Assembly: GCA_963930775.1 (NCBI GenBank)
Contig: OZ005693.1
Span: forward strand, 4,526,001-4,590,000
Direction: 5' to 3'
DNA: 64,000 bases
Source of the DNA: Cliona cf. orientalis
Taxonomy: Eukaryota; Porifera; Demospongiae; Clionaida; Clionaidae
Position 1 is the stretch's first letter. Each line of letters begins with the position of its first letter. The position numbers and the translations under genes were made by a program. The notes under the pieces were generated by a model. It was not told the DNA's origin and did no database searches. It saw nothing but the letters and a program-made list of their open reading frames with translations. This document shows, one piece after another, positions 22,735-63,492 of the stretch.

Positions 22735-25612
22735 TTACGGCCATTCAAATTCATTGGCTGGGCAGTACTGAACGTGGGTCTGGATAAACTCAAACAGAAT
22801 CTCCAACAAGAAATTGATGTCATCAAACAATCTCAGGCAATTGTCAAGTTCCTGTTTATCTTCCTTTGATAAATCAACAGCAAGATCCTTCTTCACAGAA
22901 TCAAATGGTTCCTACAATGTCATACGGTCATGTACAATGCCATGGTAAAGCTTGCATAATCATTAAAATTATGATATTTTTGAAGTACATTAAAATTAAT
23001 ATTATTAAATTTTACTCTACATGCACAGTTCAATAAGATCATATACATAGTGACTACTCTACCTCTCCTCTGAAGTAAAGTTGTCTGGCAAGTTCAACAG
23101 ATAGACACTTCCACAGAGATACTGTGTGTCCTAATTTGCAGTACTGTTGGATCTGAAAGAGAGCATCCACATAATTGGTGTATACTGGCCTCGGTGCATT
23201 GAGAGTAACAAGATACACACCTTTGGACTAAACTTTCTCGCCTTCATCTTGAGCACCTTCTCCACATACTCTCCAAGAGGCTTGTCTGCGTCTCCACCAC
23301 CAGATGAGAGGAACCCCAGAACAATATCAACAACATCCAATATCTCACGAACTCTTTCCAATGTGTGCACCTCTGTTAAAATCTCTTGTTGCATTCGTAC
23401 CATAAGGCGCTCCTGTAGTGAATAATTAGTCCAAGAATTTCAAAGTATAAATCTCACTAATTATGTCCCTCTTGACGCATTTCCTCAGGGGACCACAAAA
23501 CAATACTAATTACCACTAGCTTGTATGCTTGGGTAAGTATTAAAAATTCCTTTACGGTATAATGAATAATTATTATTATTCTCAGGTTACCAAGTTGAAA
23601 AGCCTGTAATAATAATAACAGTTTATGATTCTCTTTAGGACCCAAGAGATCAGCAATAGTTTGCCACGTAACTCCCACATTAATTAGCGGAGCATTTATT
23701 ATTTTCTTCCATTGCTAGTCGGGCAATAAAGTATACTCACCTGTGGTGATACTTTCTCTCTGATGGCACCAAACCTGGCAGCTGTGTAGGTGTCTTTGCG
23801 ATAGATGACTTGTGGTATATCAGCCAATATCATCGGTTTTCCGTGGATGAATCGATCCAAAATATCCTTTTCTAGTGCGTCTAGGTCATATCTGACGACA
23901 TGGTTGCTACCAGCAGTGAGAGAATAGTGGCAGTGGGACAAAAGAATAGATTGTAGCTGCTGTTCGTAAATCACAAGGTGACAGTGATTGATGTGAGTAA
24001 TTGCGACTTTGTGCCCGCTCCAAACAGTTTGAAGAGCACTGTGAATGCAATAAAGTCACCAATATGAATCAAGAAATGTTGGTATGGATCGATGTTACCT
24101 TTGCTCCCGGGCAGATATCAGAGACCGGCATCTCTCAATGAAATCATTATGTGTAAGAATGAGGAAGTCTACCAGTGCTGTTGTGCACGCTCCAGCCTCG
24201 GCAGTAGTAGGAATGATGAATTCCAGTGGTGTTTCAGTAGTAATGGCAGGAATAAGGTACTCTTCTTTTACTCTTAGTCGTCCTGAGGATGAAAGCATTG
24301 GCACAATCATAACTACATTGCCAATCTTAAGGCTAATATGTGGTGTGTGTGATCTAGTACTTGGTTATGCTATTGAAATGTGAATATACCATGAGTCCTG
24401 AGTTTTTGAACTGCCAGTTGCCACGCCTTAGTTAAACTTTGCATTTTCTCCTTGAAATTCTCTTTAACAGCATCTGAATAATACACATCTTTATGTTAAT
24501 GTGTCTTTACTATCTATTAATTACCATTAGTGATTGTACTGATAAACTGTCCTATAGTTGTGGTTCTCGCCTGATTTCTATCAACATAGAAATTAAATTT
24601 ATCAAAGAGATATTGTTGTAGGTGCACTATATCTGGTAGGTACTGTGTTGCTCGAAGATTTGGTTCCTAAAATCATCAGTACAGATATTAATGATTGCAT
24701 ACTATTAGCAAAATCTTACAATCATCTACGTACGGCTTGTAAAAAGTGGTGGAGAATTGGATGTTGATCCTTGATGCTCTTTTCTTGAACTTTTTGTGTG
24801 AGACTTTCAAGTGTAACTTTGGATTGAAATGTCCACATATGTGGGATGAGGTTCCCTTTTGATACTTGCACTCTTTCATAAACAAGGTAGAACAATTGGT
24901 CGTGTTCTAAATGAATAAAGATCTCAATAAAATGTAATACAGAAGTTCTGATGCTTAGAATAATGATCAATACCTTGATCATTATCATTCATAATAGCCT
25001 GAAATGCTGTGTGAATGTTTTGATCCACAGTTTCAGTGACTGTCCGGATGTAGGCATCATTAAATGCAGCCTCCCACTGCCTTCTTGCTAATTTAGTATC
25101 CAAGCGAGAATTGTTACCAAGCACCGCTGCATATCATGAAATTATAACAATAATAATATTATTATTATACTTCATCATGCAGGATTAGACCCCACCCCCG
25201 ATATTATCTGAAACTGAGTTAGTGTAATAGTATTACGGTTAGCTAATATTATTACTTACTTGAATATCTCTGTTGTGTAAGGATTTCTTTCAAAACAAGA
25301 TGTACTACCAAAATGGATTCATCTTCTCCTTTCTTCAACACTTTACAGATGACTTCGATGTCTTTCTCCAAGTGCTTCCAGAAAAATTCAGATAGAAGAT
25401 TCGGGCGCACTGAGGGATTGACCAAAGATGCCACATCTCCAAGCAGTCTTTCATTATTTGAGCATGTCCAAATGAATGCTGAATGCATCAGAGCTCGAAT
25501 GATACAAACTGCCAGTGGTGATAAGTCCCTCTCTGGTGATGGTTCAGAGCTTCTCTCAGCAGGATTTCCAAGATCATGCCCTTTCTTTGTTGCATCATTG
25601 CTATACAAATGA
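22735..25612 (-). other. RNF213: RNF213 C-terminal domain exons
   Basis: The exons read GHDLGNPAERS, VVHLVLKEILTQQ, RRQWEAAFNDAYI, PILHHFLQAV, AGACTTALVDFLILTHNDFI, LLSHCHYSLTAGSN, ILDRFIHGKPMILADIPQVIYRKD and VDIVLGFLSSGGGDADKPL. Each has a clear counterpart in order in the C-terminal domain of vertebrate RNF213. The last exon ends DDINFLLEILFEFIQTHVQY..EFEWP and stops at 22735. Confidence 0.85.
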
Positions 25613-28600
25613 ATTAAAAATTTACTAATAATATTATTATAGCTATAATGCACTATTCTTACGTTCTTGCACTCCGGTTGTCAGCCCTCAAGTTATGGTG
25701 CTTTCCTCCAATCTTTGAGCCACATATGTTGCAGGTATATTCTTGCATAGGGCGTCCACACTATCAGAATTAATAAAGTACAATGTCATGTTTATCATTT
25801 TTTATGCAGAGAATGTGCCATTCGATGATTTTACTTAATAGAGTTGGTCTCACACATGCAAGTGCTCACTGTGACCATACAAAAAGGCTAGCAAGTGAGA
25901 GAAATTATCATTCACACAAGTATAGAGCTGGACCTGCATAGAAATCATTAACTTATTCAGTAAGGCTTATCACAGTCAGTATTAATTTTTTTACCAGTTA
26001 GCATTCCATACACTACATTGTGTCACTGTATATGCATGCATGAAGTTATTATGATAATCGGAGTGCCTCATCAGGCACACCGATCCCACGGTTGATACGT
26101 GCAATGATTCATGATCATTGCAACTCTAGTTCTTCTTACCTCTCCTACATAGTAGGGATGACCTCTTGGACACTCTATACAATACAAAGGGATGATACTA
26201 TAGCAAACCATGAGTCAATATTTGCTTACGGTAAAATCTGCCTCCAGCTCGCTGGACTTCAAAGAGGGAGTCTTCTGCCATCGTAGGCAAGTAAGCAGAC
26301 TAGCAGTGTATAAAGTGATCTAATAATAATAATAATTGTCAAATTATTACAATTCCAATGATACCTTAAGAACAGCTGGGTTTTGAAGTATGTTGATGAA
26401 AGGCAACAGAAGAGGGTTTCCCGCATTAGATGAAAGAACTACAGCAGCATGAACTATCACGGCCACAAGAGTTCTAAAATGCTTTGGTTGCTTAGGTGCC
26501 ACAATCAAGCTGGCAAGATTTCGTCCTTGCTCATTAGCAATTAGCATTCTTCCTATTGTCTTCATCTCGCCATTCATTGCATTCAGATTTGAGATGTGCC
26601 TATCCAATTTCATTAGAACCTAGAGATTTGGTTTGGATGTAAGATAGACACACAGTCAATATTGTGCATGTGGATATTAGATTGCTTCAGGAGATGGACA
26701 TCATCACATGTGAACGTTCTGGAATACAATATCCATAATTACTATAATGATTATTGATTTAACTGTTCTATGGTGTTTGTGGTGCGTAGATTATATCAAC
26801 GTAGCTAACACATGTCACACAGGATGCAGGGCTCAAACATGATTGGCTAAAAACCATTACTGAGTTGTGTGTAAAAACTCACATCAGGTACGATCTGTCT
26901 TGCACTTGATGTTGCCACTCGACTTAGAGTCACCTTCCGGTATACTGCTAACAACAGTATCGCTGCACTTTGAACATTCATACCCTATTAAAGAATCAAG
27001 TGCATTTATAATTAGAGTATGATACAAATGTTAGGCACATAAGCTACCTTTGTATGTTGGGTGAGTTGATCCATTTGGCGTCCATAGGCAGCTCTGTCAA
27101 GGCTCTCTCTCAATCCAGAATAACCATGGGCATTATATAGCACGAATGGATCCAAAATCTTTTCTGCATCCTATTATGGTTTAATAGTGCTGAAAGACAC
27201 GCTTTAAACTACCAAAGCTATAACTATACACACTGTGGAGGAAGGCATGCAATCATAATAATATTATAGCTATGGTATCATTAACCATTAGTGCGTGTGT
27301 GAAAGTTCAGTCATTTGCAGTGTGTGCATCTCTCTATTTGGTGCCATGCTATGCCTACTATAAGGATTTATCAGATAATACATTTCTTATGGCATTTTTA
27401 TGATTTGAGAATGCTCATGCTTTGTTTGGCGTCACTTGCTGACTAGTATACCACTGCCATCCATGCTCCTTGATGAGCTCACACAACAAAACTATGATTA
27501 ATAGTTTAAATCACCTGTTTATTTCTCAGCTCCTTAGGTATAGCCCATGAATAAGCACTAGCAACTTTTTCCAAGCAGGACATACCATACTGTCTCACTA
27601 GCAGTCTCATCAGATATACAATAGGTCCACTTGTATCAAGACTTCCAGTGGTATCAATAACATTAATTTTCAGGTCGCAACAAACATTTTGTGTCGTATA
27701 TACTAACTGCTTCACGGGAGAACTGATCTGCTTTGATGATGATTGCTTTTCGAAAATATCTGCTGCAACTGACAAAGAAAATCTGATTTTAGCCAAACCT
27801 TCAAGAAGCAGCACAGAAATGTTAGCTGGTCCTGAAGCAGTCTCATAGAGGACAGCTACATAGCCTTCATTCATTGTTTCAGCAATTCTTCTTAGGCTCA
27901 GCTCAGATGTTGTATCAGGAAAGGATCTTAATAATGCATCCTACAAAATAAATTGGTATGTGCATGGTCAAAGTATCTTCCATTGGCATGATTTTGTGCT
28001 TACCTCAAAGCATTGAATGCAAAGCAGACAAAGGTTTAAGTCAATTGTTCGCATTCCGAGGACTTGACAAGAATGAATGAAATAGGCTTGTAAGTGTGCC
28101 TTCACAGCATCGGAACTTGGAGCAAAAATATAAAATATGAGACTATTGACAGGAACCAGTAGCTAAATATTAACTACTCACTTGTGTTCCAGAAGAAGTT
28201 GTAAGAGAAATGACCGTATTACAGGCACATCATCACACTGTGACTCGTGGTCGTACGGTGTAATATCTCGTGTGCTAAACATAGCACCTGCTTTTGTGGC
28301 AAATACAGTTTCCATCAAACACTGAATGAGTTCTGGTTCTGGAGCTGCTTGATCACCAAAACATAGGCTCGATACGACTTCCATGAAGAATTGTTGACAG
28401 CTGGTTAGCAAATATTTATGCTGTTGGCTATTTGATTAGTGGTGCATCAAGCGATGATACAAATTAATTATTTATGAATAAGTTTACCTTGATCTGGACT
28501 TCTGCTCTCGGTCAATTTGCATTAGAATTTCTTTAACCCTTTGAAGAGTACTTGCCTGACGAAAATTAGGTCCACACTGTCTTAATGTCTGGCAAAACAT

Positions 28601-31600
28601 AATAATGATACAACATATGAGATTAAAACTTCATCCTATACGTTCCGTGGTAAAAATGTAATGCACTGCAATGACTCACTGTTTCTAATCGTCTGGCGTA
28701 CTTGACAGAGACTTTAGTGTGATGTAACATGACATGTTCAAGGAACATCCTCATAGCTTGAATGAGCTGCCAATTGAGCTTAAGCTCATCCATCCACTGA
28801 TTTTGTGAAGTTAGAGAGAGAATGGAGTTCACAGTATTTTGGCACATTCTTATGTCATTCAACCAGGGTACTAGGTTTTGCTTTAGACTCTCTTTGTTCA
28901 GAGGCGGTTGCAATTCACGAAGGAGCTTATCCACAGCAAGCAAATGCAACACCTATAGCAATGGAGACATAACAGTATTTAGATACACACCAGCACAATT
29001 TTATGGATCAAGCTAAGCTTACCATTTCTGATCTGTGTTGACGTTGAGATGCAGTACTCCTCAGGGAAAGCATGATCCCAGGATTAAAGGACACCAGTTG
29101 ACTAAACCATTCCACTCTTGTTTTATTTTCGTGGTATGCAATATGCAGGGCAGCAAGATAGTGAATCAATGATCTGTTGGCACCCACACCATTGGTGGAA
29201 ATCACAGCATGGAAAGAGTTAGTAATGAGCTGTGTAAGAAAATGAAACCATTAGATTATAATATTTCATATACACAATACAACTTTTACCTCATATTCAA
29301 GTTCTTCCATGTCTCTCCTCTTATGACTGCATTTGTGCACCATTTGTACAAAGTCATGCAAATAAAACCGACTAAATTCCTCTCTGTGTAGCTCTAGAAG
29401 CTCAAATGTATCAAGAATTGCACCAATATTAGTTTGACAGAAGGATTCGGCTAGCTGAGTATGAAATCTCACCATATCATCACCTGGATTAACAAATGTA
29501 TTATAATATAAATAAATCAACCCTTGGGATAATCAATACACCTGCTATTCTCTTTGCATTGTTCCATAGAGCACTTATGGTATCATTGATGATCCAAGAA
29601 AAGGGGAACTGACATGTAAAATCTTCTTCTGATCTTCTACTTCCAGCACCAGGTAGCTTCTCTTTTGAGGCAGCAATAGCATCATAGTTAAATGGCAACA
29701 CGTTGGAATGTTGAAAAATCGCAAGCCAAAGTTGTGATACTGGTAGAATGAGTTTATTGCCTGGCTCTAATAAGTCAAGATTGTAATTTTGATCAATTAC
29801 AGATATGATGTAAGCAAAAATAGGCACAATGACTTCATCCACTTTGCGGGCTAACACGTTTCCAAATGTTCCCCCAGTGTGAAGTTTCTTGAGGTTCATT
29901 GCCTCATCCAGTACCCAACGTTTCCTGGGATCAAGGATATTGTCCCTTTCTCTCATCACTTCAGCAATGCGATTGACTAATATTCCATGAAAAGTGGACA
30001 TATCTGCAATCAGAAACCTTATGATACATACTGTATAGCCAAGAATTATTGCTGGATAATAATGAAATTTTCTCCTGATGAGAATCTCTGGCTATACGGC
30101 ACTCACAGCAGAAAATGGCTCTATTACTTTATGTATAATGGAGCGCAATCACTCATTTAGTCATGCATGCACTGGGACATACCTGGAGTAGCAGGTGAAT
30201 CTTTTGGAATAAGTCCTACTAGGCTATCAATCCTTTTACTGGCTCTCTTCCAAGTTACATCTTGTAGCTTTGAAACCGATGATTGAATACAGTCCTGAAG
30301 TCTTCTGTACAGTGGAGCAATTTGAACTTCTGTAGAAGATGGAGTAACTTTAGTTTCATTTTCAGCAGTGAATCTTCTTCCAATAAAAAGCTCGCTGATA
30401 GAGAAACCAAGAGCTGTGTGTGGGGTCACCGAGGTCTCATCAGTACTTGATCTGAGATCGTCTACATGAGCAGAAATCCATGGATCTCCAAGATACCCAA
30501 TGGTAGTCACCGATGGAGAAGTATTTTGACCAGTGGTGGTGTTATGACGTGGTAAGCTGATGACAAAAACGACATGAATCTTTCCTTTCTTCTCATTACG
30601 AGCACGCTCATCATATACTCGATATCGTGCACAAGCAATGAGATCACTATTTGTGTACACTGAATCGCACTGAATGATTAGCAAGGTATTGAACGGATTA
30701 TCTGGTTCTTGTTTGAAATGTGGTCTGCAATGAAAGATAGACCTATTATAAGAGATACAAACCATGATAAGGAATGACCAACCCTATTTTGTTGCAGAAA
30801 TCAAGCTCTGTCTCAAATTCATGAAGGTGAAAGGACACAACATTCATCTCCATTGTACCCTCTAACTGGCTGAGCTCGTTGTGGGAGAGAAGTTGGCTAT
30901 GTGTTGTCACCTAGATCAAAGGTTTAGTAATAGTCCACATAGCTAATATTAAATTTTAAACTGTTCCATTATCATGTATGCACAGTGGAACCCCGCTTAA
31001 CGGACACCTGCGATATAATGGACAATCTGAATGTCCGGATTGTATTTCCATAGACTTCAATATATTCAAACCCCCTTAACAGCGGACACCCCGCTATTTT
31101 GTATAACGGACACTTATTTTGGTCCCGTTCGAGCCTGCGCAGTAGTGAATAACCTCGCATAACGGGCAGTTAGGCCACACCCACCATTAAAATCAGTCGG
31201 TTTCAGCGACGTGTAAGCCTAAATATGTCTCAAATTCTTGCTTAGGAGTATCTATTGGCAATGCAAGCTTATTGTACTTAAACATTAAGGGAGATTGAGT
31301 GCCTTAAGTGTGTATTAAGGAATTAATTTCAGCAACACAGCATCCTTTAGTGACTTTAGCTCACCAACATACCTGTAAGAGCAATCCTGCAGAATGAGAC
31401 TCTCTGTTGTATTTTAAATGAAATTTCAAGAAGAAATCAATTGAACCATGAGCCTGCTTTCCAAAATAGACTTTCTGCAATGTTTCACTTTCATGGGCCA
31501 AGCTTGTACTTTGCAGTCTAACAATCGCATCAGGAGAAGCAGTTTGCAGCAACTGATACTGACTCATCTTAAGGATCTGCTCCATAACCAAAGTACACGG

Positions 31601-34600
31601 TATTGCATGATTAAAAATTTTGTTAGCTACATACCGCTTCTTTCCACTGTTCAGAGTCTTCTTGAAGTGTTACTAATTCTTCAGGTGCTACACCACTGAG
31701 GGCACCAGCATTCTGCACCACCCCCCATCCTGTAATGTTTGCTGCACCTTGCTCTCTCAACTTTCGTAGAAAATTAGTTGACTGAAAAATTACAGCTGCA
31801 GGAGTATCAGTCTGAAAACCAATGAACGCATGTCCTGGACAAAATTTGTCATTCCTGAAGAAGACAGCAGTTATTATAATTAGTAGTTCTTAAAACTTCA
31901 GCAAACCTTATTGGAGAAAATGCTTTGATCCAATTTTGCAACCGATCCAAAACTTCCATCTGCCATTCTTCAAGAATTGATGACATTAAAACAAAATGTT
32001 TTTCAAGTCGATTAATCAGAGGAGTAGGGAAATGACTATACACTGTTTCTTTCTCAGCAATGAGAATCAATCTGCATAAGAATTTAATGTTTGTTGCGTG
32101 AATATAAAATACCAATTCCATCAATACACAAATGAAACCTCACTTAAAATTATCATGCACTCTGCAGCGCACTCTGTGAGTTTGGAGACCAAGATCCACA
32201 TATCGGTTCCCAAAGTTGTAGATGTAGTATTGGTTGAGTACATCATACAGGCTTTCATATAAATTCTCCAAATTCAACAGTATCACAGTTCTGCCGGTCT
32301 CCATACAAACCTTAACTTGATTGATGTTTCTGCATACCTACGTATACATGTATAGAAGTGTTATGTATCTCATCCATCGAGTTATTCATAACTTCAAGGA
32401 GTATTATTACCTGAGTATACTCCTTATCCTTTGGAAAACTGCTTCCAAAGAGTATGTAGGGTTCCATCTCCTCATGATGTCCTTCTGCCAAATTTACGTT
32501 TCCCAGATAATGTTTTAAGATGTCAAGTGCAACATAGTTCTCAGTTAAGAAGAGCAGGTAACGACTCTCCCTGTAGAATATTATTTTGTATGCAATGGTC
32601 ATCTTTGTTGCTTGATTCAACACAACCATGCAACAAGTTTGCCTACCCATGCCATGTCTTTTCCGTAGAGCTGAGGCTGGTTTTAATCAATCCAAGCCTT
32701 GAGCAGTCCGGATTCATTATTGGATGCAGCTATAAAGAGTAATAGTGCATTAAGGAAAATGATGTCAGGAATTTTATTTGGGGGGGGGGGGGGGGGGGGT
32801 GGGTTGGGGAACGGACTTTGTACCATCTCCCCATTAATTTTCATCACACCCATTCTTCTATAAGTGAATAATTATTAACATCAATGGTGCTTTTTTTTAG
32901 AAGCATATGCTTCCTTGAGTCACCAAATCCTTCATCATAGGAATAGTATTGATAAACACGCATGGCTTACTTTGGGGAGGGGGTACTGCCCCCACTTCAG
33001 GCTTGGGACATACTCCCGAAATATACCCTCCTATTTTCACCAGTGGCACCTATTAAAGATTATTAAGATCCACCTACCTCTGGAGGCATTTGAGTTACGT
33101 CAAGAGGTTCTTTAATGCAAGGAAGATTCCGCTTGAACTCATCAAGTGGGTTTAGTGTTGCCTCGTCCAGTCCACCAAAGTTTCTTCTGATGGCATGCTC
33201 AAGCTGGGGCCAAGTTGGAGGGCAACCTGACTTATCACACATCCAGTATATCATCTTTATCAAACTGTATTTCAAAAGATAACACGACCAATGCCAATTT
33301 ATAGAAAAAGATAATGATCACCCACCTGTAAAAGTCTCTCAAGCCAAAGAATTGTCTTTTCTGTTTCTTGCATATTTCAACATATGATTTTGCCAGTGGT
33401 TGGAAGTATTCTTCTAGCCTCTCTCTCACCGGATCATTCTCCTTATTGGAACAAATACCTCTGGCGCTCAATTCAAGTTCTCGCTCAGTTGGATCCCCTC
33501 TAGTTACCATCACACCACGATTCATCTTCGCTGGATCCAATGCCCAGTTTGAGATGCCGATAAACGCTACTCTCTCTTCTCTGCTGATAACCTACACATC
33601 ATTATGGTATTACTATAATAATATGGAGTTTAAGGGGATCAAAAAATTTATATCAATTTACTTTATCTTGAAAGTTTTGATGTCCTTCATCTCCTCCTCC
33701 AGCCGTTCCATCTTCTAGCAACGGGTGAAGAGCCTTAAGAGGCAGGTTAGGAGAGTCCTCAGCCAGCCCAACTTCGTCTAATACTACTACAGCAACATAT
33801 TTTGAAGTATCTTGCTTCTGCTGGAAGTTTTTGGCAGTTTTAAACACTTCAATTACACTCTCAGAGGTGGATAGCTGACTGCACTGGTAAGAAAACATGT
33901 CCACTTCCTTGAAGCACTTCATCAGTGTATTTCTCGAGGCCTTTCCTTTCATTGATTCTTGAATGATAGATTTAGCTAGTGATTTAGAGCTCCCAGGCTT
34001 CCCTACTACAAACAGTGGTATTCTCAGCTCAATACAGATCGCCATCATGAAGGCATTTTCCCGTAGAGCAGCATTCTTAGCAATGTTTTCTCCTAACCTC
34101 ATATTGTTAAGGAACACTTCCTGACACCTGCATATACACAGTTGGATGGGGTAATATCCAATCCATATGTTTGCCTGCTTAATTTACACACAACTACTAT
34201 CGCTATCCCTCGTAATAATCTTAAATGGGTGCCACTGGTGAAAACAGGAGGGTATATTTCAGGAGTAAGTCTCAAGCCTGAAGTGGGGGCAGTACCAATT
34301 AACCTAAACGAGAAATTTAGAATGATCTTGGGAAGGGGACATACACTCTATCCCACTAAACTGAATGCTTAGATAGAAGTATGCTATATAGCTAGCTATT
34401 ATACTACAATCGTTATTATGGTACAAAAATTGTGCAAGAATTGCTTGAGGCGGGAATTTACACCTTATTGCTCATAATAATGGCTGTTGTGTATGGCTCG
34501 CCAATTGCAGTATCATACCATTGTATTTCATTTCGGAATTGCTTTGCTCCACCAGGAAGTTTCAGAGGTGACGAGAATTGTTTGGATACTTCAACTTCAT

Positions 34601-37600
34601 ACATTGATCTGTCTTGAAGTCTTGCATGGTAACATACACTCAACGAAAGTATCAATGATCGTGTAAGAGAAGTGGTACTCTCACTATAGTTCTACAACAA
34701 TACTGTAGCAATGAGAATTGGCAATAGTTACAATTTAAACAACTTACATGGCCATATTCTCTTTTGTGATCATCAATCAGAGGTGAAAGCTCGTTCATAT
34801 GATCATAAAAGTACACTAAAACAATCATTGCTCTTTCTACATCACGCAAGCTAACAAAGCTGCATTCATTCTGTGAATGGAAAAAAAATTGTGTGTAAGA
34901 TCTTATATACTCATCAGCCGCTTATATAGCTACCTTTGTGCGTTTCATATAGTCCTGAGAACAATTCAAAACTTTAGCTATTGCAGCAACAGCATGATGC
35001 CCTATAGAACGAAGTCCTCTATGCCGATTTACCTGCATGCAGATACAAAACTTTATGCTGAAATGTCCAACGCTTGTTCTATATTTAAGTGAACAATTTC
35101 TTACATGATTAGAAACTACTTGATGTATGTACTGATATTCTGTGTCTGTTTTCAGCTGTCCAAAATCATAAACAAGAGGTCTCATACTTGGAGGAAGATC
35201 AAGTACACGATAGACGAGATGCCGTAAAGGAATATTGCCTAATGATAGATAAGTAGCGACATCAATAATAATAATAATTAATGTAGAGCAAACAAACCTA
35301 GTTTGTGCACAGTTTCACTTTCTCGTACATAGAACCCAAGGCCTGCATTTCTGAGTCTATCAATCATTTCGTCACTATGCCTGTCACAAAACAAAGGCAT
35401 CTTATAGGCATCTCCATATGTCATAATACAAATCATAGTTCTTACTTTCTGTATGGATTACAAGCTGCAATAAACTTTATATGTTCTGAAATTGGTTGAC
35501 CATTGATACGATGATCACACATGACTTCTTTGATCAATCCGAGAGCGTCAGTGGTGTTGGCTTCATCAAAAAAGGCAATAGTCATATGCACACCTTGTTT
35601 TGCATTTCTTTTCGCTTCTTTATTCACATAAAGTACAAATTCCTGCACATCACTTTCTGTAATCCCTCCATGAATCTGTATATATGTATAGCATAGTGCT
35701 CGATACGCATTCTTACATTACACAATATTACTCAGCTATACCTTCATTATGTACATGTTTCTAACGTCAAGCTCTTGACGAGATAATTCACTCATATACC
35801 GAATTAATCTGGTCTTTCCACAGCCTGTTTCACCCATAATAACAACGGGAATATTACATCTGCACACAAAGTAAAATAATATATGAAGTGGGTAAGGTAG
35901 AATGTATCATGTGATCTTGGAGTATTACCTGAACCTCATATAAATTGCTAAAATTTTAACAATGTTATCCATTGTTAGCACATAGGAGGTATCTGGATCA
36001 TGATGTTTCACCCCCATGACTGCACATAACTTCTGAATCATATCAGGCTTTCCCCATTGAGTGTAGTCCTCAGAGAAGTTAACCCCATTTCGTTGCAGAC
36101 CAGTGAAAAGATTACTTGACATTATGTTAGCTTCGAGTACACTTCCACTGACAGGGTGTACAAGATTTCCTTGTTGTGTGACTTTGAAGCCAACAAAAGT
36201 AATAGTACCATCAGAGGTTTGGTTGAAGAAAAGGTAAGGATGGATACTGCATAGTGTTATCATGAAGCTTAATCAAAAATAATATTATAGTATCATAATG
36301 GTATAAAGACTGGAATAGGTCCACAGAAACATTTACTGTAGAATCCCGCGATTATGCCCCCCTGCATTTTTAGTTCAAGTTCCTGCATACCGGTAGGTAG
36401 TTTTATCCTGTGCATAAGCCCCCCCCTCCCCCTCTGACTGTAAAATGCAGACATTACAGACCATAAGCCAAGTAAAAATAGTAGCCACAACTAATAAACT
36501 AAATATTTGTGTTATAATCTTGATTGGTAATTGTGCTTGCTGAAATCAATGGTAGCTGCTGCTATGATGATAGCGTGGGTAGCACTCTTTTGCATCTAAA
36601 TGCGATACTGATACCTCAAATATTGGCCCATCCCTCAGTCTTGGCCCAATGTAAGGTGCACTGCCCATGGGCCGTCTTTCGTGAGGGTATGGTAAAACGT
36701 AACAAATGTGTGCCTTACTTTTGTTCCCAACGTTTTCTTGAGTCAATCTGATACTGATTTAGCTGTGTTTGTACAGCCTGGTTCTTCCTAGCTAATTCTC
36801 CTTCCAGAGAAGGTGTAGCAAAATCCTTTGACATACGGATCATGAATTTGACAACAAAACTTTTTAACCCAGCCAAAACATCACCAACAAGTGCTTCATT
36901 ACAGTAGACTGACTCTTCACATGATTGCAACTGGATGCTAAGGAATTCGATAAAATGTTTTATCTCTCTCCAAGAAGGATTTTTCACTCCACAGTTCCTA
37001 TAGTATGTTATTGATCACACAGTACATTTTAATCACTGAGATAAGGATAGATGTTTGGATTTACCTCGAAATTATTTCTAAGCAGTTTATATCACTCCCT
37101 TCCACTTTTCCGCTGTAGTGGAATCTATCAATATTTCCTTTTTCATGACGACAAAGATACTGATAAGCTCTCTGATACGTTGCACTCCGGAACTCGTTTC
37201 TGTCCATTACTATATTCAATGCCTCTATATTAATTACATTCAATACATTAAATAACCTGTTTTGCAAGCACATGTGCTTATCATTAATATTGTGATCATA
37301 CTGAAATATCGTTATGCTTATTTGAGTGTAATTTTGTCCTTCTGTATGTACATAATATGTGACCGGATCTGAGAAAACCCGCATATTTGTCAAATGTGAA
37401 TATGGCGCAATGCGCATTTTTAGTATCTCCTGTCCAAAAATATGAAAGTCCAGTTTTTGTCATATTTGTGTCAAAGAACCTTTCTACTAACTGTTGCCAC
37501 CACCTACGGAGGGTAAACGTAAGTTACCAAGGCGAAATAAGCCTTCATCTTGACCTACCTAGTCAGTACGGCTGCCGTACACGGAGCCCGTTGCTATGGG

Positions 37601-43600: not shown

Positions 43601-46600
43601 ACATGTTGAACTTGTACAGGTATTTTCTAGAATCATTACCTTTTGTGTAAGTTCTGATCCATTCTATAAAATCTGCACAGTTAACAAATGTCTGCAAACA
43701 GTCAAGTTTTTTTTCGTCCCTGAAGTCTTCAAGAAAGGAGCAAGCATTAATCAAATTTTCATCAATAGATGAGAGTGGGCTAGACTTCATGTCAGACATT
43801 CCCTGAAAATACAAGAATTTTAAAGTGAATATCTCTCCACCTGTCTGTATAATACCGTAAATCGCGAATATTTCGTGTCTAAAATATTTCATGCGATAAA
43901 TTTTCACGTTAAATAATTTTCGGACAAACGACCCTGTACCTATTATCGTTAATATTGCGCATGTATTTTCGTGCGTTTAATTTTCGCACAAGCCAGGCTG
44001 TCCGAAAATATTTTAACATCGAAATATTCGCGATTTACGGTATAATTAAGGGTTAGCGTTGATACAAGAACCAGTATCTCTGACCTCTGAGTAGTAGCAG
44101 CTAAAATGCTAGAACTAACAGCAATGGTATAAGCAGAAAATTAATCCTAGCTTCTTGGATAGATTACTATTATAAGAGGCAACATTGGAAAATCGCATGT
44201 ACCAAAACTTGATTTGTAAGAAGATAATGATTGTCTGAGTAATAATTATGGAGGCAGTAGCCTCGTCTTGCCCTCTCTACTCATGTGAGGGACACAGCAA
44301 GTGAGCTGACAATTTTTTTAGGATAGTTAATATCCACATGAATCTCTGAGGGTGAAACGAGCCTCCCCATTCCATTTTGGCTTTCATAAACCAACACAAC
44401 ATAAATACTCCATTCATGGTAACATACTTTTGTTGCTAGAGTTCTCATAAGACTGAAATCACCAGTGATCTTCAGTTTTACACTCACATCAATCACCACC
44501 TTTGCAGCTTTGGTATACTGACACAGTTTCCAGTATTGCACCATAAGGTGTACTGCTCTTTTGAGCCACATGGGATGGTTGCTTGGTCTTCGATTATTTC
44601 TACACATCTCTACACCAGTATACAAACTAAATAGATGAGTAACAATGTGTCTTTCATCATTGTACTGAAGAAAATAAGTGTCTACAGATGAAAGTAAAAT
44701 TGTTAGATCTCGTATTTCATCAAGGAGCCTCATGCATTCTTCAAAAGCAGGTTCCCACAGGTGCTCAACTATCCCCTCCATAGTCAGTTCTACACAGCTT
44801 TTTCTAATGGAATTCAGGGTTTTAAGCCAAATTTTCTGAAATACGTCATTATTATTTTCACCAGCCATGATTCGAAAATGAACCATAATTGGTTCAAGAG
44901 GAGTAGCAGCTGCACAGCACAGATATTCTACAGGACCTCTTCCTTTACTTGGAACACATAAACAGTTAATTGAACAAGAACTAAAATCTCTGTCAAGCTC
45001 ATCTTTAAGTTCATCAAGACCTGAAATAGGTATTCAATATTAAATAGCCACACAGTAGTACAAAACAAAACTTACCTATAACAGGGATAGTAACTTGAGA
45101 ACAGAGAAACTGTAGCAAGTCTTTACGAGCTACAAAGTTCTCACATTCATGTAATCGACGTGCTAAGTCATCTTTAGGGTGTTGCCTCTTGAGTCCTTTC
45201 CAATGGCTAGTAACAGAGCACAATTTTTCCATCTGAGCCCGCTTGGGAAGCATTGTTTGTAGGTCCTTTATAACAACTTCACCATTCGCCAGCTTTTCAC
45301 ACATGCTAGTGAGAATGCTGTTAGCACAAGCACTCAAAACTGTGCAGTGCTCAGTAAGGCAGGATGCTGCCTTGGCTCTTCTTGGCTCACTGGCTGAAAT
45401 GGTAAGATATTTAGACTTAATAGACACGTATAGTATTGTATCTTACTGAAGATTTTGATGAAACAAGGCCACAGTTCCCATTCCAGAAGCTGATCTAAGG
45501 TTATTGTCTCCACTCCAAAGGGATATTGCAAAACAAGGATCTTCTCCATGATTTTTCCAACAGTTTCTCGCTGCTTGGATGTGCCATTGTACAGCCTTTC
45601 TACCCCTTCAGCTGTGTCGGCTAATTTCTTTAATTCAGCAAAAGTAAACCAATAAAGGCATAGAGCAATCAATTTTACACACTCACCATTCGATGTATGC
45701 TTTCCATTACAGCTTCCATGAAGAGAGTTGTAATGTTCGGATCAACAACTTTCTGAGTTTCCAGTACACAGAATAAATCAATTCTTTTGCTTAAGGGCTA
45801 TGAATTAGTATAATATTTTGGCATTACTATTATACAGGAACATATCACTTATAACAAAATTGCTGATAATAAGGGTTACACTTGCTATGAGGCGCAATTC
45901 ATGTATTAACTATTTTTAGCCTTGCACTACACAAGTACATGCATCTGCTCGCATGCTAATTTTAGTTCCAACAGTATAAAGTTAATCAAAATTGCCATGG
46001 GTATGTTCAAATCTAATAGTACCAGTGCACGCTATATTCTGGGTATGTGACTATAAATACGAGCAATCGCACAATTGCCATGCCATTCCATTAAGCACAT
46101 AGATACCACTGGTGTGCATGTACTCCTTGGCACAGCTACTTCTATTTAGGGCATCTCGTGGTAATTGCACCTCGCTATTAAATACAGATTTTCTATCCAT
46201 GGTGCTGTGCTTATACTGACATGAAAATATGTTCAATGCTTAGTGAGAGCAATCACATACCACTTTCCTTATTCGTTCTTTGATTGTTTGCAAGATAGCA
46301 GGTTGCCATGACTCTTGAATATGCTGAGGACAATCTAATTTATATAGGCTTTGACAAAACTGCAAACAAAAGGGAAATAAAATCACCAACATTGAAAAAG
46401 ACTGAACCTTACTTCAAGTTCATCGTTAGCACACAAAAGCGAATGTGTACCAGTACCAATTGGTGATCCAAAGACACCACCATATACTCTTTTCATCCAT
46501 GTAATGATTTCCTTGTGTACACCATGCATTAGTTCTTTACTTTGCTCTTGAACCACACCACGAAGTTCTTCATCTGGAGCATATTTCTTCAGCGTGGTTA

Positions 46601-61600: not shown

Positions 61601-63344
61601 CTCAATGTGCATGCGGGGTATGTACTCTACAGAGCTCTAGTTTCCTAATGATCCCACTGCCTGCATGCATATACAAGGAATAAAAATGACCAATCAGTAT
61701 CTTTATTACAAAAGATCGGTAGATCTCAAGATGAAGCCCAAAATTTCCCGTTAGCTTACTTATACTAAACGGCCACTAAAAACCGGTCACCATATAGCCG
61801 GACTCGCCTGCATGTTGACACAACTATTGTGGTTCCACAATAGAACAGGCTACTATAATTACGTTATGCTAAGGTATTGTTGCTATAATAATATTGGTGC
61901 ACCTTGCTGAGCTGGCATTACTCAGGTTGACCTTTGCACACCTACATACTTGAGGTTATGCTGAGCCTACAATTTCGTGGTATATCTAAACTCTGCATGG
62001 TCACATGTGCAGACATGAGCATAGATAAATCTTTGGCCCTAAATAATCATGCAATGTTTATGCTAATGTCCAGCTTAGAAAACAGGAAATCGTCAAATTT
62101 TTGTTGCAACATGGTACCATACCTTCAGTGTGAGGCACAATTAATCATTACAAGGGAAATATTTAAGTTGTACAGATATCCATAGTTGTAAGACCAAAGG
62201 TTGTGGTATGTAGTCAAGACCATCATACTCCGAGGAATCTTAAGTTCAAAATTAATGATGCATATACGTACCTATACTTGTATTAGTGTCATTCTTTGGG
62301 AATTACTAGATACTTACGTTAGCAGTCCCCACATTAAGATGCAAACCTTATTATAATACGTGACCTGCTATGGGAAAAGGGACCATTAATTTTGGTTTGT
62401 GTTTTTTGTTCGTAGTATGTAGCTTGTTGCATGTATGGAGTAATGTACTGTTCATGTATAGCTAATCCGTTCTGTTTGTGCCTAATACAAAGTTGGAACA
62501 TAGGCTGTGTAGCTACTCACTACCAGCTATAGAAAGAAGGCTATTTGGGCATAAAATCGAACACTCTTGTCGTCCACAAATGGTCCCTTTTCTCATGGCA
62601 GGTCACGTATTTCACTTTCAAGAGTTGAAACAGCTGATAAGAGTGGGTAACAGGTGAGGTATGGGCTCCTAGATCACATGGCTTATTGTATTAAACACGG
62701 AATTCTGGCTATGAATTGTGACATTAACTTAATACCTGGTTACTGGAACCGGATGCTACTGAGAAATCGTTCACCCCTTCTGATGTCTGGTCTTCAGGAC
62801 TGGGTCTTTCCTCTACTAAAGCTTTTCCAGCTTCATGAGTTTGCGCAGGGATAATTTTGGGCTCTGCCTCAGCCGGTACTGCATCACATTTGCCAGTCAC
62901 TAACTTTTCTGCTTCCCTTGGCTGTTTCTGACTTAAGTCCTTTTCTGTTGAAAGTGTTTCATCTTTGGCAAGTTCTGCCAGAGGTGTAGAATCACCACTT
63001 TCTTCTACCTCAGTTGACTTGGATGGGCCATCAGCATCTTCAACGGCAGAAGCATGCTGTTCAATTGTAGAGTCATGCACTTCTCCCTGATCAGCATGAC
63101 TTGCATTGGGATTATCAGCTACCATAGTATTTTCATGGCCATTCGATATCACAGTACTTTCATGGCCATTCGAGGTGAACCCGTTGGTAGACGAACCATT
63201 CAAGGTCGGTTCACCGTCAGCTTGCTCCAGCTTGACTCTCGGGCAGGCGCATTTGGGACAGAAGTTGAATTCAATCCCACCTGCGAATGCTGAGAAATCG
63301 AAACCACACTTGGTGCACCGTTCGGGCAGTTGCGACTCAGACAT
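22735..63344 (-). CDS. RNF213: RNF213/mysterin orthologue: giant AAA+ ATPase and RZ-finger E3 ligase, RING absent
   Basis: I count about 70 exons on the minus strand, roughly 5,000 residues by eye. Phases match at every junction I checked, which covers the 5' half from 63344 to about 37065 and the RING and RZ region. Order of parts: zinc ribbon and disordered N-terminus; carbohydrate-binding-like domain; helical stalk; AAA+ units; E3 module; RZ finger; C-terminal domain ending EFEWP. Similarity to vertebrate RNF213, recalled from memory, is strong in the core (VVLDEVGLAEDSP, KYVDLG/RYVDLG, NWALDPAKMNRG, VGFLSTAGGD-like LGFLSSGGGD). Mammalian RNF213 is a cytosolic, lipid-droplet-associated E3 that ubiquitylates proteins and bacterial lipopolysaccharide. 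The RING between residues encoded at 28588 and 28400 is missing. Introns are mostly 50-150 bases; the large ones hold transposons. The start is the first ATG before the zinc ribbon. Confidence 0.9.
25663..26174 (-). other. RNF213: RNF213 RZ finger (catalytic zinc finger)
   Basis: Exons 26174-26140 and 25760-25663 join in phase 0 to read QCPRGHPYYVGE then CGRPMQEYTCNICG. The pattern C-x3-H-x6-C-x8-C-x2-C has the same spacing as the human RZ finger (from memory C4505, H4509, C4516, C4525, C4528), including the cysteine proposed to carry ubiquitin. It is followed by the conserved IGGKHHNLRADNRSAR segment. The RZ finger, not the RING, is required for ligase activity in mammalian RNF213, so this protein could be catalytically competent. 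Confidence 0.88.
26347..31160 (-). other. RNF213: RNF213 E3 module without a RING finger
   Basis: Exons from about 30920 to 26360 match the region of human RNF213 from the AAA ring end through the E3 shell (ELDFCNKIG, NTLLIIQCDSVYTN, CQFPFSWIINDTISALW, LHIAYHENKTR, MFLEHVMLHHTKVS). After YARRLET the exons 28588-28488 and 28400-28182 continue as TLRQCGPNFRQASTLQRVKE, then EQKSRSSCQQFFMEVVSSLCF. In human the C3HC4 RING lies exactly between the equivalents of these two phrases. The intervening introns are under 100 bases and contain no CxxC motif. Confidence 0.8.
30983..31165. mobile_element. Partial pogo/Tigger-like element in an RNF213 intron
   Basis: The sequence CAGTGGAACCCCGCTTAACGG is a typical terminal repeat of the pogo/Tigger type, and CGGACAC-type motifs repeat through the next 150 bases. 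A clear second terminus was not found, so the 3' limit is approximate. It is probably a truncated non-autonomous copy. Confidence 0.5.
31370..34870 (-). other. RNF213: RNF213 AAA4 and following units
   Basis: The exon at about 34130-33670 carries Walker A VGKPGSSKSLAKS (33981-34003) and Walker B VVLDEVGLAEDSPNLPLK (33751-33778). The next exons hold FIGISNWALDPAKMNRG, FFGLRDFY, YLLFLTENYVALDIL, GSSFPKDKEYTQ, CRNINQVKVCMETGR, NLYESLYDVLNQYY and FPTPLINRLEKHFV. These are among the most conserved stretches of the family, and no inactivating change is visible. Confidence 0.88.
32780..32799 (+). repeat. G20 homopolymer in an RNF213 intron
   Basis: Twenty G followed by TGGGTTGGGG. On the transcribed strand this is a C-run. 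It is a likely assembly or replication trouble spot, possibly the core of a decayed G-run MITE. Confidence 0.9.
34930..36996 (-). other. RNF213: RNF213 AAA3: active ATPase unit
   Basis: Walker A is GETGCGKT (35811-35834) and Walker B/sensor is FFDEANTT (35553-35567), followed by AACNPYR (sensor 1) and then SDEMIDRLRNAGLG. Preceding exons carry MIRMSKDFATPSLEGE and LTMDNIVKILAIYMRFR. All catalytic positions expected of an active AAA unit are present. This is one of the two units known to bind and hydrolyse ATP in vertebrate RNF213. Confidence 0.88.
37355..38012. mobile_element. TGTGACC-family inverted-repeat element carrying an exon-like ORF
   Basis: The left end is ATATGTGACCGGATCTGAGA and the right end on the other strand is ATATGTGACTGGATCTGAGA. 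The match extends through AAACC. The 658-bp element lies in the RNF213 intron between exons 38597-38477 and 37224-37065. Unlike the other MITEs, its interior is CpG-richer (ACGCGTG, GCGCGCGAT) and contains a minus-strand ORF with a start codon and splice donor (37792-37637). Confidence 0.7.
37637..37792 (-). CDS. 51-codon ORF, or alternative first exon of RNF213
   Basis: The ATG at 37792 opens MNRKSIKWTWAEPFEMNVKI and continues to FFDAQEAKK, where a good donor (AAG then GTGAGC) sits at 37664. Reading on without splicing stops after eight more codons at 37637. If spliced at 37664 (phase 0) to the alternative AG at 37223, the frame continues as ALNIVMDRNEFRS of RNF213. That would give a short form containing AAA3, AAA4 and the E3 module. 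I recognise no family for the 43 residues. Expression is unknown. Confidence 0.4.
   Translation of the reverse strand: MNRKSIKWTWAEPFEMNVKIKQGSDFNVDNGRRLFFDAQEAKKVSEGTVVR
39394..39536. mobile_element. Decayed G/C-run MITE in an RNF213 intron
   Basis: It contains TAGGGTTTATTTCAG at the left, TATTTCAGAATTTCGCTC at the right on the other strand, and the phrase GTTTGCCCC-TCTTGAG-GAAAT. That phrase is shared with the element at 50884-51310. The ends are degraded and approximate. Confidence 0.45.
43855..44040. mobile_element. 186-bp palindromic MITE, copy 1
   Basis: The ends CCGTAAATCGCGAATATT and its reverse complement are flanked by TA on both sides (43853-43854 and 44041-44042). It shares nearly its whole length with the copy at 53016-53200, including TTTTCGGACAAACGACCCTG. 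It is in an RNF213 intron. TA targets and the CCGT terminus suggest a Tc1/mariner-type source. Confidence 0.8.
47911..48232. mobile_element. MITE with CAGTGGCGTATCTAG ends and AACCAG duplication
   Basis: The inverted ends CAGTGGCGTATCTAG are perfect. They are flanked by the direct repeat AACCAG (47905-47910 and 48233-48238). It is non-coding, with a CGCGC-rich patch. It sits about 50 bases downstream of the splice donor of RNF213 exon 48781-48282. Confidence 0.82.
48945..49683. mobile_element. TGTGACC-family inverted repeat enclosing an RNF213 exon
   Basis: The left arm (48945-49011) and right arm (49621-49683) are inverted copies across about 65 bases, with a four-base gap and a few mismatches. 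They share GACTGGCAT-TGATTT, then CATGCACATATGTGACCGTC, CACGAGAAAA and CATGCATAATG. Between the arms lie RNF213 exon 49227-49150 and a 45-codon ORF (49365-49228). The structure is transposon-like in its ends but host-like inside. Confidence 0.65.
49228..49365 (-). CDS. 45-codon basic ORF abutting an RNF213 exon
   Basis: MLKREQQPTFRWKRTRRQAF continues to RRKKWLETFFSAAAVLA. It is very rich in Arg and Lys and stops at a TAG whose last two bases are the AG acceptor of RNF213 exon 49227-49150. It lies inside the inverted repeat 48945-49683. It could be an upstream ORF of a transcript starting in this element, or chance. No family is recognised. Confidence 0.25.
   Translation of the reverse strand: MLKREQQPTFRWKRTRRQAFVKIVSAQNRRKKWLETFFSAAAVLA
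50884..51310. mobile_element. Nested G/C-run MITE with 5-bp duplication
   Basis: The ends CAGGGTTTCATTTAGG and CCTAAATGAAACCCTG are perfect inverted repeats. They are flanked by GTATG on both sides (50879-50883 and 51311-51315). Several G and C runs of 7-12 lie inside. It is the same family as 5373-5646. Confidence 0.82.
51661..51830 (+). repeat. CT-rich low-complexity tract
   Basis: Long (CT)n and (CTCTCTCT) runs with a few CCCC interruptions. Protein-like frames read from it are artefacts of composition. Confidence 0.85.
53016..53200. mobile_element. 185-bp palindromic MITE, copy 2
   Basis: It is a close relative of the element at 43855-44040 and is likewise flanked by TA (53014-53015 and 53201-53202). 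Differences are a few substitutions and single-base deletions, mostly loss of CpG (CGCGAA to CACGAA, GCGATAA to GCAATAA), as expected from cytosine methylation decay. Confidence 0.8.
53559..53836. mobile_element. MITE with CCGTATTTCCTCGAAATCT ends
   Basis: The inverted ends CCGTATTTCCTCGAAATCT are flanked by TA (53557-53558 and 53837-53838). The interior repeats GGCGAGATTTCGAGG-like units in both orientations. The element ends 41 bases from the donor of RNF213 exon 54203-53878, in the intron. Open frames on both strands inside it are repeat artefacts. Confidence 0.8.
54373..54389 (+). repeat. G17 homopolymer and G-rich tract
   Basis: Seventeen G, then TGGGGAGGGGG. It is intronic in RNF213. 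Confidence 0.9.
56184..56754. mobile_element. 571-bp Tc1/mariner-like MITE
   Basis: The terminal inverted repeats begin CAGTAGGAGTCAAAAAAA and continue through CGGTGACGCTTCCGTTCCGT for about 50 bases. TA occurs at both sides (56182-56183 and 56755-56756). The CAGT terminus plus TA target is the Tc1/mariner signature. It is non-coding. It lies in an RNF213 intron, 58 bases upstream of exon 56126-56047. Confidence 0.87.
59816..59968. repeat. Repeat shared with 61064-61641
   Basis: GCAAGGGGTAAAACAATCG at the left and GCGGGGTATGTGCTCCACAG at the right match the bounds of the longer copy at 61064-61641 (GCAAGGGGTAAAGTAATCG and GCGGGGTATGTACTCTACAG), both followed by AGCTCTAG. The short copy looks like an internally deleted version. 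Confidence 0.55.
60054..60445. mobile_element. TGTGACC-family MITE
   Basis: The ends ATTACGTGACCTGCTCAGAG and ATTATGTGACCTGCTCTGAG (other strand) continue together through AAAAGGGACCAC-T-GGGAT. The interior is AT-rich and non-coding, and shares TTTTGGCATAGATTGATAG with relatives at 49070 and 50130. Confidence 0.78.
61064..61641. repeat. Longer copy of the GGGGTAAA/GCGGGGTATG repeat, with GTCGTT microsatellite
   Basis: It is bounded by the same two motifs as 59816-59968. A short (GTCGTT)n microsatellite lies at 61083-61117. It probably represents a mobile element of unknown type. Confidence 0.45.
62355..62611. mobile_element. TGTGACC-family MITE
   Basis: The ends AATACGTGACCTGCTATGGG and AATACGTGACCTGCCATGAG (other strand) continue through AAAAGGGACCAT. 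It is 257 bp, non-coding, and lies about 120 bases downstream of the RNF213 exon 1 donor. Confidence 0.8.
62736..63344 (-). other. RNF213: RNF213 exon 1: zinc ribbon plus acidic disordered N-terminus
   Basis: It encodes 203 residues and ends in phase 0 (SSNQ then GTATTA). Residues 9-31 hold two Cys pairs (CTKCGFDF and FCPKCACP), a zinc ribbon comparable to the CPSC..FCSQCG at the start of human RNF213. The rest is rich in Glu, Ser, Asn and Pro, with repeated SNGHE-type units, and is likely disordered. Assignment to the same gene as the downstream exons rests on phase, the shared architecture with vertebrate RNF213 and the lack of any other 3' end, across a 5.7-kb first intron. Confidence 0.75.
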
Positions 63345-63492
63345 CTCTTGAGATAGGTACGTCCGTACTATATCATCTATGGTACAGTGTATGCGATTGA
63401 TCGTTACACCGTGTGTATGTGGGTGGACTCCCAAATATTTAAACATTAATTAACATTCAACGAGCCACACCCCCAAATTTTGCTCACGCAAG
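63345..63492. promoter_or_regulatory. Divergent RNF213/GALK2 promoter
   Basis: Only 148 bases separate the RNF213 start codon (minus strand, 63344) from the GALK2 start codon (plus strand, 63493), so both 5' UTRs and any core promoters must lie within or very near it. A CCACACCCC motif (about 63465-63473, KLF/Sp-type) is visible, as is an AT-rich TTAATTAA block. No TATA box is clear at a sensible distance. Confidence 0.6.

Follow-up and report, generated by a model that had tools for sequence, protein, structure and literature searches.

We found that a gene on the minus strand of a 64,000-nucleotide (nt) stretch of the genome of the sponge Cliona cf. orientalis (assembly GCA_963930775.1, contig OZ005693.1, positions 4,526,001 to 4,590,000; hereafter the window, with positions counted from its first letter) encodes an RNF213 protein without a RING domain at the site where mammalian RNF213 carries one, and that five paralogs of this gene, named here A to E, have no RING at that site either. 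At the DNA level this absence is solid. RNF213, a protein with six AAA units, an N-terminal stalk and a CBM20 domain, is the main moyamoya disease risk gene and a broad innate-immune ligase, and the mammalian literature treats it as a protein with both a RING and an RZ finger (PMC7311170; PMC11549300; PMC12440826); deletion of the RING is reported to have no effect on auto-ubiquitylation or bacterial ubiquitylation, yet disease mutations fall in the RING (PMC12440826; PMC11549300). Very probably, in our judgement, the window gene belongs to a family of genuine animal RNF213 genes with an E3 scaffold that has no RING insert; the window protein and A would be RZ-only ligases, and B to E scaffolds or regulators. 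The DNA and the same absence in the five paralogs support the proposal, made in a preliminary description of the window, of a natural RING-free RNF213 with an intact RZ finger and intact ATPase motifs.

The E3 module of the window gene consists of 17 exons joined by hand from position 30723, an arbitrary codon with no splice site, to position 25000, an arbitrary codon cut (Table 1); together they encode 1224 residues without a stop, with GT...AG at all 16 internal junctions. Only exons joined by hand or placed by protein-guided spliced alignment were kept for E3 modules, and a home-made gene finder gave poor N-terminal models of the window gene. The segment after the RING site matched human and mouse RNF213 strongly (phmmer E 1.2e-17 for a 377-residue query, over query residues 116-374; residues 4095-4351 in the human chain 9g08), and a profile of the six paralogous sequences gave E 2.3e-27. 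The segment before it aligned in the correct order (W..I...LFVEHVLL) to human residues 3954-3987, at a non-significant -1.9 bits for the window protein alone, and the six-sequence profile reached 8.8 bits against mouse (i-Evalue 11). The post-RING, profile and mouse alignments identify this E3 scaffold as homologous to that of vertebrate RNF213. An earlier alignment by eye around the site is borne out for the post-RING segment, whereas the linker (TLRQCGPNF) has no significant score to human.

The mouse RING is reported to occupy residues 3940-3999 (60 residues, corresponding to 180 nt), between the last two E3-back helices (PMC7311170). Between our pre- and post-RING anchors there are 107 residues in human and 26 in the window protein, which bears out the claim that the whole RING is missing at the site; measured with the profile, the same anchors are separated by 107 residues in mouse vs. 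29 positions in the sponge, a gap that exceeds the RING alone. The two introns at the site (91 and 87 nt) are each shorter than the 180 nt needed for a mouse-size RING, and no remnant of a RING was seen at the site, the preliminary description having noted that nothing with paired cysteines lies in them; the exons at 28588-28488 and 28400-28182, which it had joined in phase, are present, GT/AG-flanked and continuous in frame. Nor did a RING appear elsewhere: a regular-expression scan for a complete RING in single open frames of at least 20 residues on both strands of the window returned none, and the C-x2-C/H pairs listed from minus-strand open frames of 15 residues or more between 22 and 50.5 kb showed no RING-like arrangement by eye. 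Searches with Pfam profiles returned the RZ finger only on the 1224-residue E3 module (E<=1) and no RING family on a 1557-residue gene-finder protein covering part of the upstream exons (E<=10). The cross-brace C3HC4/C4HC3 RING of RING-type E3 ligases was accordingly not found in the E3 module, which is fully covered by these searches, or in the upstream part, which is covered incompletely.

To assess the rest of the genome, we searched all 149 contigs (216.8 Mb; the window lies on contig C5) with the RING-site region and recovered the window gene and five paralogs, all on contig C7: A (828 kb), B (768 kb), C (782 kb), D (2.646 Mb) and E (2.748 Mb). Their models, obtained by protein-guided spliced alignment with an aligner that penalises stops, comprise 1203-1219 residues with no stops and are 40-47% identical to the window protein; for D and E the small first exon is uncertain. 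At the RING site each passes from ..RRL through a short linker to SCREFFME (A and D), SCRGFFME (B), SGREFFME (C) or NCRAFFME (E); with the window gene included, none of the six has a RING at this site between the last E3-back helices. The paralog introns at the site measure 107 and 111 nt (A), 111 nt (B), 205 nt (C), 60 nt (D) and 111 nt (E); a further 39-nt 'intron' modelled in D reads open throughout and is probably an artefact of the aligner, the linker and post-RING segment there forming one open exon. In five of the six genes, no intron at the site is long enough for a 180-nt RING; the exception is C, and the three sense frames of its 205-nt intron hold no RING. Because all six copies are without a RING, the RING-free state predates the duplications, barring repeated origins, and because the five paralogs show the same absence as the window gene, a local assembly or gene-model accident is strongly disfavoured.

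A hidden RING exon at the site is ruled out by the intron lengths together with the six agreeing loci. We give hardly any weight to the broader version of this objection, in which a RING exon is alternatively spliced, distant or dropped from the assembly: the gene structures were read from DNA alone, which leaves room for it, but six loci agree, five of the six genes have no intron at the site as long as a RING, and the published quality value (QV) of the primary haplotype of the assembly (odCliOrie1.1) is 58.0 (PMC12639293). We likewise regard it as improbable that a separate sponge RING protein supplies the RING function in trans. RING matches are indeed very numerous in the genome (a PF00097 search gave 150 matches after scoring 150 of 565 candidates, a list from which the window's absence is uninformative), but no specific partner was found, none having been sought, and the function of the mammalian RING has itself been called elusive (PMC12440826).

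The RZ finger of the window protein, by comparison with mouse, aligns gap-free across YQCPRGHPYYVGECGRPMQEYTCNICGSKIGGKHH and is recognised by Pfam (PF20173, 7.7e-21). In human RNF213, C4505, H4509, C4525 and C4528 are reported as zinc ligands, C4516 as the nucleophile and H4537 as the proposed general base (PMC11549300). The window protein keeps all six at the matching positions and with the mammalian spacing, Cys-x3-His-x6-Cys-x8-Cys-x2-Cys-x8-His; in its second RZ exon the catalytic Cys is the first codon, followed by the two zinc Cys and the catalytic His. For both the AAA3 and the AAA4 region vertebrate RNF213 is the best match in the PDB (E 3.2e-33 and 2.5e-85, respectively), and Walker A and B are kept in each (Table 1), so that the RZ finger and both active ATPase units are, as first described, intact. 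The sponge gene therefore has in common with vertebrate RNF213 (mysterin; mouse 6TAX/7OIK, human 9G08/8S24) the AAA3/AAA4 motifs and the order of the E3 module; it differs in having a short linker in place of the RING at the E3-back site and in occurring as six close copies, of which four have a damaged RZ site.

A complete RZ catalytic pair is present in two of the six genes, the window gene and A, and the term 'orthologue' applied earlier to the window gene is better replaced by one of six close co-orthologues. Paralogs B to E all retain the RZ zinc ligands and are still recognised by Pfam as RZ fingers, and each is without at least one catalytic residue (variant sites at C7:770032, 780044, 2648838 and 2742553). 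At the nucleophile position, whose codon directly follows the splice acceptor, B has His (CAT), C Tyr (TAT), D Cys (TGT) and E Tyr (TAT); at the general-base position B has Asp, C and D have Ser, and E has Ile in the preferred splice model. For that second RZ exon of E we compared five protein guides: B, the closest relative of E, and D give an uninterrupted 95-nt exon with a GTAAGT donor, the window-gene phase and Ile; A and C give a different small exon, also distant, that does not supply the His; and the window protein splits the exon and adds a distant small exon that places a His at the catalytic position. The loss of the His in E is thus likely, going by the uninterrupted exon, and the Cys-to-Tyr change in E is independent of the splice choice. 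Set beside the published RZ mutants (PMC11549300), B, C and E are without the equivalent of the C4516 changed in C4516S; the sponge copies keep the ligand equivalent to the H4509 changed in H4509A, and the residue corresponding to H4537 is missing from B, C, D and probably E. Walker A and B of AAA3 and AAA4 are intact in five of the six genes (window gene, A, C, D and E); in B both Walker-B glutamates are replaced, by Gln in AAA3 (FFDQ) and Asn in AAA4 (VLDN; C7:761508 and 763016).

In an unrooted maximum-likelihood tree of the E3 modules the four damaged copies form the group (((B,E)100,C)98,D)100, separate from A and the window gene; on this tree, a single loss of the His in the ancestor of B to E and one change of the Cys in that shared by B, C and E would be enough. 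The ratio of nonsynonymous to synonymous substitution rates (dN/dS), computed on the spliced models, was 0.24 for B vs. E at a dS of 0.59; the remaining pairs within B to E, five in number, gave 0.10-0.15, rough values at dS > 2. Selection still acts on B to E, and the genes do not look decayed. That they are nonetheless decaying pseudogenes, in which the lost RZ residues mean nothing, we consider very improbable; the replacement of both Walker-B glutamates in B would fit such decay, but all four have stop-free spliced models of ~1200 codons (from the stop-penalising aligner), all four retain the RZ zinc ligands, and the dN/dS of B vs. E speaks against it.

We propose that, in the RING-free RNF213 family, the short linker would join the two E3-back flanks where mouse holds the RING, and that the window protein and A would act as RZ-only ligases, with ubiquitin passed from an E2 onto the RZ cysteine and with the ligase switched by ATP binding to AAA3/AAA4, as RING-deleted engineered mouse RNF213 appears to work. 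We infer RZ-only action for these two proteins as the best reading because they carry all the features that published experiments require. Mouse RNF213 with a precise deletion of residues 3941-3999, replaced by GSGSG, is reported to show wild-type-like auto-ubiquitylation (PMC7311170); as in the sponge, the same stretch is gone and the scaffold and RZ finger are kept, although the mouse form is laboratory-made with a 5-residue linker and the sponge forms have linkers of their own. Deletion of the RING is further reported to leave ubiquitylation of Salmonella and Listeria intact, whereas RZ cysteine or zinc mutants abolish ubiquitylation of Salmonella, Listeria and the Toxoplasma vacuole (PMC11549300), and ATP binding to AAA3/AAA4 is reported to promote E3 activity (PMC12075652). 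Paralogs B to E, on the other hand, could not fully use the RZ route, and no or crippled RZ ligase activity is predicted for them. They might instead act as AAA+ coat or scaffold proteins, or regulate the two active copies; C, D and E would be possible coat proteins that have no ligase role, and B would bind ATP but not hydrolyse it. The coat formed by mammalian RNF213 on Toxoplasma vacuoles is reported to need the ATPase and to form without RZ activity (PMC11549300).

Several points weigh against this interpretation. We know of no biochemistry on any sponge RNF213. The pre-RING alignment is not significant by itself, and a RING elsewhere in the N-terminal two thirds is excluded only by the pattern scan and by a gene-finder protein with missing exons. 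The stop-free models of A to E would be partly built in by the aligner's penalty on stops, and are best taken as supportive, not independent; dS is saturated in 9 of the 15 gene pairs (all those with the window gene or A), which give no ratio, and the only solid ratio is that of B vs. E. Moreover, the published view, adopted in the preliminary description, that the mammalian RING is dispensable and the RZ finger catalytic holds for auto-ubiquitylation, Salmonella and Listeria, and less well beyond them: RING deletion is reported to have partly impaired ubiquitylation of the Toxoplasma vacuole (PMC11549300), and a zebrafish study disagrees, calling its RING deletion ligase-dead and ligase activity indispensable (PMC4632019), a similar earlier ligase-dead claim being one that Ahel et al. 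blame on an over-long deletion (PMC7311170). Finally, the disease mutations that fall in the RING have been read as pointing to a function for it (PMC12440826).

The absence of the RING is one matter and its origin another: the statement that the sponge gene 'has lost' its RING is right about the absence, and a gain of the RING on the vertebrate side fits the data as well as a loss. Secondary loss, in which the animal ancestor had the RING and the sponge (or demosponge) line lost it once before the RNF213 duplications, has about an even chance in our estimate; it agrees with the absence from all six copies and with a family that also loses RZ catalytic residues and, in B, the Walker-B glutamates, but none of the six genes shows a remnant of a RING at the site. 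We hold ancestral absence at somewhat below an even chance, the sponge then representing the older form and the RING having been inserted into a working RZ ligase on the vertebrate (or bilaterian or eumetazoan) line. The mouse RING is reported to be a discrete insert between two helices, dispensable for auto-ubiquitylation (PMC7311170), and the six RING-free sponge copies include pairs just 40-42% identical; a single early loss in the sponge line would, however, explain the same data, and the comparison covers this sponge and vertebrates. Scans of viral and genome contigs with two alignments and one protein found no RNF213 relatives from outside.

A search of the genome with the AAA4 exon returned the same six genes and four divergent RNF213-like genes on contig C3 (1043302, 1108566, 5202153 and 6956140; 10 of 10 candidates scored). 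The AAA3 Walker A GETGVGKT was seen in three of these four and an AAA4 Walker A (GAPGSSKT or GSPGSSKT) in all four, and AAA4 Walker B is altered in the one at 1108566. Neither a RING nor a complete RZ finger turned up in a pattern scan of the 15 kb surrounding each gene. Their use as an outgroup was dropped, since spliced alignment beyond the AAA region was unreliable and gave internal stops (two of the four tried). Six further matches to the RZ finger family PF20173, in open frames of 629-2002 residues, lie on C10 (four clustered within 8595543-8622319), C18 (2636387) and C2 (14263002); these loci are probable ZNFX1-like genes, ZNFX1 being the other RZ-finger protein. Within the window, a 241-residue open frame at 62727-63449 on the minus strand (Table 1) begins with a zinc-ribbon-like CxxC...CxxC followed by low complexity and may be an N-terminal exon of the RNF213 gene; its first 85 residues have a single match in the genome, and Pfam zinc-ribbon matches to it are weak and below the cut-off. 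A KIFSDSLACAK stretch common to open frames at 43949-44140 and 53073-53282, both on the minus strand, is probably an interspersed repeat.

Table 1. Features of the window RNF213 gene, in order of translation.
Feature	Position	Strand	Evidence or remark
Possible N-terminal exon of the gene	62727..63449	-	assignment inferred
AAA3 Walker A, GETGCGKT	35811..35834	-	
AAA3 Walker B, IAFFDE	35562..35579	-	
AAA4 exon, Walker A (GKPGSSKS) and Walker B (VVVLDE)	33707..34129	-	
E3 module/hinge exons 30723-30183, 30003-29542, 29483-29290, 29229-29023	29023..30723	-	
Exon before RING site (..NWQLIQAMRMFLEHVMLHHTKVSVKYARRLET)	28680..28952	-	in-order, non-significant match to human 3954-3987
Intron 1 at RING site, 91 nt	28589..28679	-	
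Linker exon in place of RING (TLRQCGPNFRQASTLQRVKEILMQIDREQKSRS)	28488..28588	-	
Intron 2 at RING site, 87 nt	28401..28487	-	
Exon after RING site (SCQQFFMEVVSSLCF..)	28182..28400	-	human RNF213 match from 4095
E3 module exon	28004..28115	-	within human-matching region
E3 module exon	27515..27940	-	within human-matching region
E3 module exon (ILDPFVLYN..)	27048..27158	-	
E3 module exon	26883..26984	-	mouse alignment
E3 module exon	26365..26619	-	mouse alignment
Exon leading into RZ finger (SAYLPTMAEDSLFEVQRAGGRFY)	26230..26299	-	mouse alignment
RZ finger exon 1 (QCPRGHPYYVGE; zinc ligands Cys and His)	26140..26174	-	Pfam, mouse alignment
RZ finger exon 2 (CGRPMQEYTCNICGSKIGGKHH)	25663..25760	-	PF20173 7.7e-21, mouse alignment, DNA
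E3 module exon after RZ finger	25260..25600	-	mouse alignment
E3 module exon, arbitrary end 25000	25000..25126	-	mouse alignment

Among the matches listed in a search of the open-licence literature, no title or opening of an abstract reported a natural RING-free or RZ-dead RNF213, and protein databases may contain RING-less RNF213 proteins of invertebrates that have passed without comment. A bolder scenario, which we think unlikely, is that RNF213 was dismantled stepwise with each stage kept, the RING being absent from all six genes, then the general-base His of the RZ finger lost in the common ancestor of B to E, then the RZ Cys in that of B, C and E, and then both Walker-B glutamates in B; the ligase-dead forms would be dedicated ATP-driven coats, marking or managing without ubiquitin the vacuoles that hold intracellular dinoflagellate symbionts or microbes, and B an ATP-locked regulator. 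That the paralogs act on symbiont or microbe vacuoles in the sponge is offered as a hypothesis only. Symbiodiniaceae sequence is reported from the same Cliona cf. orientalis sample (PMC12639293), and RNF213 is described as expanded or induced in symbiotic bivalves (PMC9993606), in the bacteriocytes of a deep-sea mussel under starvation (PMC11299980) and in immune cells of cnidarians upon activation (PMC13319465).

A natural RING-free lineage would mean that the scaffold, the ATPase core and the RZ finger of RNF213 can be maintained without the RING. The RZ-damaged paralogs would be natural separation-of-function forms, C, D and E keeping the ATPase motifs without the full RZ catalytic pair and B being a naturally occurring double Walker-B variant whose reading frame is open, and the six-gene sponge family would thus offer a ready-made set of natural variants for dissecting RNF213 part by part.

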